A DNA stretch of 42,066 nucleotides from Deltaproteobacteria bacterium (GTDB lineage: Bacteria; Desulfobacterota; Binatia; DP-6), in assembly GCA_005879585.1 (NCBI GenBank), contig VBKG01000339.1, positions 1 through 42,066 on the forward strand. Direction: 5' to 3'. Below are positions 8,563 through 10,352 of this stretch, piece by piece (the first letter of the stretch is position 1; the number at the start of each line of letters is the position of its first letter). Made by a program: the position numbers and the translations under genes. The notes under the pieces are model-generated. The model was given only the letters and a program-made list of their open reading frames with translations, made no database searches and was not told where the DNA came from.

Positions 8563-9231
8563 ATGGCTAACCTCGAGCCCCGGGGCGCCGCCGCAGAGGC
8601 CGTGTCGCGACCCGTCCCGAGGCCCAAGTCGACGGCGCGTGAGTACGCGGAGGCGCTGGGCGTCGCCCTCCTGCTCGCGCTCCTCATCCGCATGTTCGTC
8701 GTGCAGGCTTTCAAGATCCCTTCGGGGTCGATGCTGCCGACGTTGCAGATCGGCGACCACATCCTGGTGAACAAGTTCGTCTACGGCGCGCGGATCGAGA
8801 TCCCGCTGACGCAGGTCTCGCTCGGACAGCTGCCCGGGCTGCACGAGCCGCACCCCGGCGACGTGATCGTCTTCATCTGGCCGAAGGACCGCTCGAAGGA
8901 CTTCATCAAGCGTGTCATCGCCGTCGGCGGCCAGACGGTCGAGGTGAGGAGCAAGCAGGTCTACATCAACGGGAAGCCATGGGACGACCCGCACGCCACC
9001 TTCGCGCCCCCGCGCGGGGTGTCCGGCAGCGGGGAGAACTACGGCCCGTACAGCGTGCCGGCCGGCACCGTCTTCGTGATGGGCGACAACCGCGACCAGA
9101 GCTACGACTCGCGCTTCTGGGGGCCGGTCTCACTCTCCGACATCAAGGGCCAGGCGCTCATCATCTACTGGTCCTGGGACGGCCCCGACCGCTGGGTTCG
9201 CTGGGATCGCCTCGGTCGTCTGGTCTACTAG
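8563..9231 (+). CDS. lepB: Signal peptidase I
   Basis: This 222-residue membrane serine protease removes Sec and Tat signal peptides. A single N-terminal transmembrane helix (about residues 30-50) leads into the catalytic Ser56 in KIPSGSMLPT. The catalytic Lys116 lies in FIKRVIAVGG, and box E, VMGDNRDQSYDSRFWG, is complete. It would mature secreted proteins such as the Cys-rich protein at 61-516. The start ATG 8563 is 27 nt after lepA. The stop is followed within 5 nt by the first hairpin of the large palindromic element. Confidence 0.95.
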   Translation: MANLEPRGAAAEAVSRPVPRPKSTAREYAEALGVALLLALLIRMFVVQAFKIPSGSMLPTLQIGDHILVNKFVYGARIEIPLTQVSLGQLPGLHEPHPGDVIVFIWPKDRSKDFIKRVIAVGGQTVEVRSKQVYINGKPWDDPHATFAPPRGVSGSGENYGPYSVPAGTVFVMGDNRDQSYDSRFWGPVSLSDIKGQALIIYWSWDGPDRWVRWDRLGRLVY

Positions 9232-9235
9232 GACG

Positions 9236-9559
9236 CCGACCCGAGATACATCTCGGGTCGGGACCGGACGCGAGAGTGGAACGCTCGGTGACCCGCGCGC
9301 GCCGCATGTCGCGGCCGGCGAAAGCCGGCGCGACAGACGAGGTACGCCCGCCCCGCCGACGCCTCTGTGCGAGGCCTGTCCAGCACGCCGAAGGCGGGCG
9401 GCTTCACCGCTGCGGCGGCATCCGCCGATCGAGCGATGCGCGCCGGGCGCGTACCCCGCATGCCGCGCTGGCTTCGCCAGCCGCGGCACGGCAGTCGCGC
9501 GTGGTACTGTCCCTTCACGCTCGCGTCTGGCTCCGACCCGAGACATGAGTCTCGGGTCG
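9236..9559. repeat. Nested palindromic element (BIME/REP-like) between convergent genes
   Basis: Two arms of about 115 bp, 9236-9350 and about 9446-9559, are imperfect inverted copies of each other (about three quarters of positions agree by eye). Each arm holds the same two hairpins. The first is an 11-bp stem around CCGACCCGAGA (9236-9246 with 9251-9261) and CGACCCGAGAC (9534-9544 with 9549-9559). The second is TGTCGCG...CGCGACA in the left arm and TGCCGCG...CGCGGCA in the right, with changes that keep pairing. The middle holds further hairpins, e.g. GCCTC-TGTGC-GAGGC (9361-9375) and CGGCGG-CAT-CCGCCG (9413-9427). The outer hairpins lie 4 nt from each flanking stop codon and probably also terminate transcription. 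No credible coding sequence is inside. Confidence 0.8.
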
Positions 9560-9563
9560 CGCT

Positions 9564-10352
9564 CTATCGCGCGAGTAGCTCGGACAGCGCTGCGTTGAAG
9601 GTGTCGGGCTCCTCGAGGAACGGGGCATGGGCGCTGTCCTCGAAGACCGTGAGGCGCGCGCCGCGGATGCCCTTGGCGAGCACCTCGCCGCCGGCGAGCG
9701 GGAGCAGCCCGTCGTGGCGCCCGTGGAGCACCGCCGTCGGAACGTCGAGCGTTCGCAGATGCGGACGGAGGTCGGCGTCGAGCACGCCCTCGAGACACGC
9801 TGCGGCGACGTGCGGCGGGGTTTTCTGCATCTGCCCGACCGCCCAGGCATGGAGCGGCGAGGTGGCGCCGGCCTTGAAGAAGTCCGCGGCCAGCTGCCGC
9901 ACGAAGGCGCGAAAGTCCTTGGCGATGACCGCGCGCATCTCCGCCGCCCGCTCCGGCGCCGCGTTCGGGTTCTTCCCGTCGCTGAGCCCGCCCGGCGTCG
10001 TGCACACGAGCCCGAGCGCGCTCACGCGCTCGCCGAGGCGCCGCGCGAGCTCGAGGACGACAAGGCCGCCCATCGACCAGCCGACGAGCCCCAGCCGTGG
10101 CACGCCGAGCGCGCGCACGAGGTGCTCGAGGTCGCCCGCCATCGCGCCGATCGTGTAGCCGGTCCGTGGATGCGACGACTCGCCGTGGCCACGCAGGTCG
10201 ACGGTGACGAGCGTGAAGCGGTCGCGGAGCGCCTGGACCTGCCGATCCCAGAACGTCCGGTTGCAGGTCCAGCCATGGACCAGGAGGACGAGCGGGCCCG
10301 TGCCCACCCGGTCATAGCGGAGCGAGACGCCGGCGTGCGAGAGAAATGGCAC
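9564..10352 (-). CDS. Alpha/beta hydrolase
   Basis: The 262-residue protein is an alpha/beta-fold hydrolase of the BioH/PcaD/3-oxoadipate-lactonase type. LLVHGWTCN forms the oxyanion hole. The nucleophile is Ser93 in GWSMGG, the acid is Asp214 in GRHDGLLP and the base is His242 in DSAHAPFLEEP. The substrate cannot be predicted. Translation starts at GTG (complement of 10350-10352). It is divergent from the methyltransferase at 10442 (89 nt apart) and convergent with lepB across the palindromic element. No operon partner is visible. Confidence 0.88.
   Translation of the reverse strand: MPFLSHAGVSLRYDRVGTGPLVLLVHGWTCNRTFWDRQVQALRDRFTLVTVDLRGHGESSHPRTGYTIGAMAGDLEHLVRALGVPRLGLVGWSMGGLVVLELARRLGERVSALGLVCTTPGGLSDGKNPNAAPERAAEMRAVIAKDFRAFVRQLAADFFKAGATSPLHAWAVGQMQKTPPHVAAACLEGVLDADLRPHLRTLDVPTAVLHGRHDGLLPLAGGEVLAKGIRGARLTVFEDSAHAPFLEEPDTFNAALSELLAR

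Follow-up and report, generated by a model that had tools for sequence, protein, structure and literature searches.

A palindromic repeat at CT^AG junctions of convergent genes in uncultured soil bacteria resembles a mobile head-to-head REP dimer

The intergenic palindrome analyzed here is one copy of an element that is dispersed and near-identical within its genome, that sits typically at CT^AG, and whose insertion sites are found empty in relatives. We propose a non-autonomous mobile palindrome, working in the manner of a head-to-head REP dimer (BIME-like), and assign this reading a probability of about 0.55. The window, meaning the whole stretch of DNA that was analyzed, covers positions 1 to 42,066 of contig VBKG01000339.1 and belongs to the genome of an uncultured soil bacterium, the host of the repeat (G000; draft MAG, 5.28 Mb, 625 contigs). 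This genome was compared with six relatives from the same GTDB family (G001 to G006). In the window, the palindrome lies between two converging genes, a lepB-like and an alpha/beta-hydrolase-like gene as judged from their sequences, and the features of the locus are as follows.

8563–9231, plus strand: predicted lepB-like signal peptidase I gene, 222 aa, ending ...LVY-TAG
9230–9565, no strand: whole repeat, AGGACG...CGCTCT, inserted between CT and A(G); delimited from the flanks of 40 own-genome places, 222 ends in six genomes, and empty sites
9230–9235, plus strand: left terminus AGGACG, whose AG completes the lepB stop T^AG; consensus edge AGGA
9236–9261, plus strand: left-arm hairpin 1, 12-bp stem CCGACCCGAGAT/ATCTCGGGTCGG; direct reading, with 7 of 12 pairs covarying in the set of 56 arms
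9270–9278, plus strand: conserved linker motif GCGAGAGTG between the left-arm hairpins; kept in the arm alignment
9307–9335, plus strand: left-arm hairpin 2, TGTCGCG.CCGGC gaaa GCCGG.CGCGACA; reading, arm alignment and covariation
9336–9460, no strand: centre of the element, joining the two arms; differs in sequence and length from genome to genome and is missing from several copies through deletion
9461–9488, minus strand: right-arm hairpin 2, TGCCGCG CTGGC ttcg GCCAG CGCGGCA; reading, arm alignment and covariation
9534–9559, minus strand: right-arm hairpin 1, CGACCCGAGAC/GTCTCGGGTCG; reading and covariation
9560–9565, minus strand: right terminus CGCTCT (consensus CGCTCCT), which completes the hydrolase stop T^AG; flank comparison
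9564–10352, minus strand: predicted alpha/beta-hydrolase-like gene, 262 aa, ending ...LAR-TAG

The initial annotation had placed the palindrome at 9236–9559 (324 bp) and described it as fitting exactly between two convergent stop codons. The 4-nt gap on each side is there (the lepB stop TAG occupies 9229–9231, and the hydrolase stop TAG, on the minus strand, 9564–9566), but the flanks of the copies share CTAGGAG...CTCCTAG. Thus, the repeat is longer, spanning ~9230–9565 (336 bp), and it overlaps and completes both stops (T^AG). Elsewhere in G000 its edges read AGGA[G/C] on the left and CT(C)CT on the right, and the family consensus of the whole element is AGGAGG...CGCTCCT. Lengths range from 218 to 408 in G000 and are mostly 291 in G001 and G002. 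The arms, each of about 115 bp, are indeed inverted imperfect copies of each other, with 72% identity between the element and its own reverse complement overall and 75–76% over the outer 111–116 nt, and both hairpins are present in each arm of the 9236–9559 sequence. An arm comprises ~100 nt, running from the terminal hairpin 1 through a linker with GCGAGAGTG to hairpin 2. AGGAG abuts or nearly abuts the hairpin 1 stem and is overlapped by CTAG, not by GTAG in most copies; some copies from G005 have NTAG right next to the stem. Hairpin 1, a 26-nt unit, is a short stable palindrome in the ~20–50 nt range of REPs, and an inverted partner hairpin lies within 750 nt at 138 of 176 ends, with the tags outside, as in a REP dimer.

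A genome-wide search bore out the expectation that the element is repeated, locating it in ~40 places in G000, 21 of them full length at 96–100% identity. Several have lost central sequence or survive as a single arm, and the exact end pattern occurs in G000 in element copies only. Copies lie at or near the ends of contigs C123, C202, C458 and C226; the repeat therefore probably breaks the assembly, and the copy numbers are lower bounds. In G001, two head-to-tail elements abut at one CTAG (GCGCTCCTAGTAGGCC; locus L089, C90, 62500–65200), which suggests insertion at the end of a pre-existing copy.

Five of the six family relatives carry the element (G001, G002, G004, G005 and G006, but not G003), with arms that are 73–84% alike. 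A covariance model of the arm found matches in six of the seven family genomes, G000 included, and in none of 138 other sampled genomes of the class. When 84,980 species were searched, a set from which records very near the window's genome were possibly excluded, exact-pattern matches came nearly all from soil MAGs labeled 'Deltaproteobacteria bacterium', mostly DP_26 and also DP_23. The exact end pattern was also seen on a short actinobacterial contig from the same soil sample series (L185; VAYC01000340.1, Actinobacteria AC_48), possibly through binning contamination or transfer. Members of the related subfamilies are alike inside one genome and diverged from one genome to the next. Median nearest-neighbour arm identity is 0.99–1.00 in G000, G001 and G002 and 0.89 in G005, indicating that the G005 copies are older or more diverse.

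Many orthologous junctions are empty in relatives, and comparing them with the occupied ones shows that the element entered between convergent genes, as a rule at CT^AG, and left the last codon of either protein unchanged. On both sides of an occupied junction a TAG stop overlaps the element end, and most of the junctions used are places where convergent genes overlap or abut at their ends. At L007, the junction in G001 reads GCCTAGCC / GCCTAGCCACC, where CTAG is the stop common to two convergent genes, and joining the occupied flanks through one CTAG restores the same frame for both. The occupied flanks of L039 join to TACTAGAGG, and G001 has TACTGAAGG; those of L021 join to CAGCTAAACCACC, and G002 has CAGCTACACGAC, from which we take the outermost base to belong to the flank. 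The L003 junction in G002 is TTAG. The lepB/hydrolase junction itself is empty in G001 and G006. In G001 it reads TAC TGA GGC CTA, with the last residue of both proteins as in the window, and in G004 the two genes abut at CTAG. The lepB stop is directly followed by an element or arm in three species, G000 (9230–9565), G002 (L121) and G005 (L126), and the nearest sequences of each of these arms are copies within its own genome. This could stem from repeated insertion or from one old insertion that conversion has since homogenised.

The flank letters allow two readings: either AGGAG...CTCCT went into CT^AG and duplicated nothing, or the element is GGAG...CTCC and the TA was duplicated. Among the 134 ends with exact AGGA, 115 are preceded by CT. 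Ends with exact GGA have TA before them in 121 cases; nine others keep the A and lose the T, and none keeps the T and loses the A (9/9 one-base departures, sign test p = 0.004). These nine ends favour insertion at CT^AG without target duplication, with the element supplying the AG of both stops. Of the 14 pairs that have TA at both ends, 13 give CTAG on reconstruction.

Copies stand in a regular position relative to stop codons, as the locus in the window had led one to expect. With flanking-gene direction called by a codon-usage model, classified genes run inward at 41 of 48 ends in G000, 28 of 34 in G001, 16 of 22 in G002 (85 of 104 for genus g1 in total) and 40 of 41 in G005. Across six genomes, 109 of 128 scorable inward genes stop 3–16 nt before hairpin 1. 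The G005 share is 35 of 40; there the edge sequence is often lost, and a stop (TAG, TGA or TAA) mostly still lies 4–13 nt from hairpin 1. Solo arms likewise keep hairpin 1 beside a stop codon. Background figures for placement come from two samples: 434 kb of G000, made up of large contigs of which many were known to bear copies, and 400 kb of G005. In the G000 sample, 57 of 392 neighbouring pairs (14.5%) are convergent, compared with 14 convergent, 7 tandem and 0 divergent among its 21 element sites (p ~1e-7), a count from which eight further matches inside called genes, single fuzzy hairpins and one double, had been discarded as chance.

The target sequence may explain part of this placement. 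CTAG is strongly depleted across the window, with 8 occurrences observed against ~30 expected from trinucleotides. It occurs 115 times in the 434 kb of G000, where 49 are stop codons and 18 lie inside called genes, and 62 times in the 400 kb of G005, where 33 are stops and 10 are intragenic. Since CTAG is often a stop and seldom intragenic, a CTAG-type target alone leads to stop codons. Element sites are in addition more often convergent than element-free CTAG stops (convergent to other, 14:7 versus 6:23, p = 0.0015), which points to further filtering or preference, although TAG stops that arise through the insertion itself weaken the comparison.

The arms also have a conserved fold. The folding energy of 9236–9559 is 8.5 s.d. 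below that of dinucleotide shuffles, none of which equals it. TGTCGCG (9307–9313) pairs with CGCGACA (9329–9335), and TGCCGCG (9461–9467) with CGCGGCA (9482–9488). These differences between the arms, and CCGGC against CTGGC with their partners, had been singled out at the outset as preserving pairing; they are present and form part of a wider covariation pattern in an alignment of 56 non-redundant arms (109 columns, scored on the two-hairpin structure). Standard pairs fill 98.9% of cells. Double-sided compensatory changes affect 10 pairs and 84 cells, against shuffle means of 5.8 and 18.7, and 0 of 500 shuffles reached either value; when the structure was slid along the alignment, pairing fell to 29–42% in every version. 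Hairpin 1 occurs as CGACCC/GGGTCG, CGGCCC/GGGCCG, CGCCCC/GGGGCG and CGAGCC/GGCTCG, and one hairpin 2 pair varies as C-G, T-A and G-C. The linker motifs and the hairpin 2 core are strongly conserved across genomes. Against Rfam 15, two tRNAs alone scored above the gathering threshold in the window, and the element had no match. We rejected an intrinsic terminator on direct reading, as no T run follows either hairpin.

Candidate mobilisers are encoded elsewhere in these genomes. We found RAYT-like Y1 genes, which were also searched by Pfam Y1_Tnp, in six of the seven family genomes (nine in G000, eight in G001, two in G002, one each in G003, G004 and G006, none in G005). Their best NCBIfam model is NF047646, at 24–47 bits, with every protein below its curated cut-off of 80. 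Seven loci in G000 and G001 (L062, L063, L066, L067, L074, L079 and L081) hold diverged RAYT-like Y1 paralogues of ~220 aa that are 54–72% identical. The Y1/RAYT-like loci examined have no arm nearby, only background matches to the element ends, and no hairpin of their own common to them. The initial annotation had suggested looking for a RAYT gene; those present are RAYT-like, and none of those examined carries the arm. No transposase was found beside two solo arms in G001 or around other solo arms.

Taken together, our model for the proposed REP-dimer-like palindrome is the following. By the edge statistics, the element would start with AG and end with CT, completing both stops and leaving both proteins unchanged. 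An enzyme that recognises the hairpins may move the element in single-stranded form by cleaving after CT at each edge, and the best candidates for this enzyme would be the RAYT-like Y1 (HUH) transposases. Insertions would be tolerated where no protein is broken and no gene is cut off from its promoter, so that old copies would survive almost only beside gene 3' ends, where the hairpins may also serve as 3'-end structures on mRNAs. In support, all three genomes with near-identical copies contain RAYT-like genes (9, 8 and 2), and CT is the cleavage dinucleotide of E. coli TnpA-REP (PMC8266576), in agreement with element edges at CT^. Against it, duplication of a TA target would yield identical flanking letters, a strand-specific CT target alone would not require CT on both strands, and arms and RAYT-like genes do not coincide throughout: dozens of arms are found in G005, which has no RAYT-like gene and whose copies look old, and G003 has one such gene and no element.

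Several other explanations bear on the same observations. An origin of the repeat in misassembly or chimerism of the MAG can practically be dismissed: the draft is fragmented and some of its contigs (C123, C202, C458) end in the repeat, but copies also lie inside long contigs with differing flanks, other species have diverged subfamilies in their assemblies, and the empty sites at orthologous junctions give clean alignments. We consider it rather unlikely that the element is a classical MITE of an IS630/Tc1-mariner-like (or IS5-like) DDE transposon, in which the arms would be long terminal inverted repeats and a DDE transposase encoded at one time would act in trans, targeting and duplicating the TA in CTAG. 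The flanks read equally well as a TA duplication around GGAG...CTCC, with the 13 of 14 pairs that reconstruct to CTAG, IS630 reportedly prefers the TA in CTAG (Tenzen and Ohtsubo 1991, as cited in PMC2170065), and DDE_3 genes are present in G000 and G002. Among the seven family genomes, however, DDE_3 occurs in these two and G003 only, being absent from G001, G004, G005 and G006, and DDE_Tnp_1 is absent from G001, G004 and G005. As G001 (100% completeness) has more than 25 near-identical and thus recent copies and no match to either family, TA-duplicating DDE families are poor candidates there and RAYT-like enzymes better ones. Nor does any DDE_3 (IS630-type) locus carry the element ends, all matches being at background level. 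In the nine one-base departures it is always the T that is lost, and ordinary terminal repeats need no covarying internal hairpins.

Placement could instead follow from function, the arm being a 3'-end module selected after stop codons as a barrier to ribosomes, exonucleases or converging polymerases, with the paired form serving two convergent genes. This explanation, which is compatible with a mobile palindrome, strikes us as unlikely as the source of the placement, though worth weighing. Hairpins remain next to stops in G005, where the edges are mostly lost, and in solo arms, pairing is nearly complete, and the lepB stop carries an arm in three species. Yet most convergent pairs lack the element (43 of 57 in the 434 kb of G000, 47 of 49 in the 400 kb of G005), G001 or G002 is empty at most alignable orthologous junctions, the missing U-tract means that the hairpins are not standard intrinsic terminators, and the frequency of stops among CTAGs predicts stop adjacency from the target alone. 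A bolder idea, which we find distinctly improbable, is a lineage-specific mobile punctuation element, whose mobiliser would seek out stops, preferably a convergent overlap at CTAG, and which would complete both stops and add two-hairpin 3' ends that the host keeps and maintains. A last alternative concerns the covariation alone: the compensatory changes in the hairpins may reflect quasipalindrome correction by template switching during replication, not structural selection. Such switching creates and mends stems in a single step (PMC8794818; PMC7202029), and an excess of the kind seen here, 84 double-sided changes beside very few one-sided or G-U cells, is what it would leave. We regard it as a real possibility short of an even chance, given that the linkers and the hairpin 2 core are conserved too, so that the arm is not merely self-correcting, and that the 115-bp outer palindrome stays uncorrected (72–76%). 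Thus, the earlier view that structure and not just sequence is kept stands as a pattern, whereas selection maintaining the arm structure is plausible but unproven, because the scarcity of one-sided and G-U cells is expected from template switching as well.

The element offers a clear natural case of a repeat spreading in a gene-dense genome without protein damage. CTAG is often a stop and rare inside genes here, the element ends rebuild the stops, and the empty sites of sister species make the insertion readable. With the diverged G005 copies, one can ask if it is function or replication error that preserves 3'-end hairpins.

MITEs of the IS630/Tc1-mariner group (e.g. Correia-type) are short and non-coding, with inverted ends, a CTAG/TA-type target and many near-identical copies. 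The element shares all of these features. It differs from IS630 MITEs in having no parent transposon with the same ends, in its nested covarying hairpins, in flanks that lean to CT^AG without duplication, and in that G001 lacks the DDE families tested. With GTAG-type REP dimers and BIMEs (PMC3733652; PMC8266576) it has the architecture in common: a tag outside the hairpin, two inverted units, and an intergenic position. GTAG-tagged REPs form head-to-head dimers mostly within 20 bp of the 3' ends of convergent genes, their GTAG termini often supply the TAG stop to flanking ORFs, and some of their spacers hold further stem-loops (PMC3733652); our element is also found at convergent 3' ends and also supplies TAG stops. 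In contrast, its tag is CT^AGGAG and not GTAG, its unit is an arm of ~100 nt with two hairpins and conserved linkers and not a single REP of 20–40 nt, and it is ~220–410 bp long, with tens of copies and no RAYT gene carrying the unit. For these reasons we call it REP-dimer-like and not REP. The first description as two inverted REP-type units (BIME-like) thus holds for the architecture, with a GGAG/TAG-type tag outside the hairpin, but not for membership of a RAYT-linked family. In Anabaena variabilis, GTAG-15 dimers, whose sequence seems otherwise unrelated, lie in long palindromes of the form TATAGGA...TCCTATA (PMC3733652), and our element is likewise a pair of hairpins within a larger TAGGA...TCCTA palindrome.
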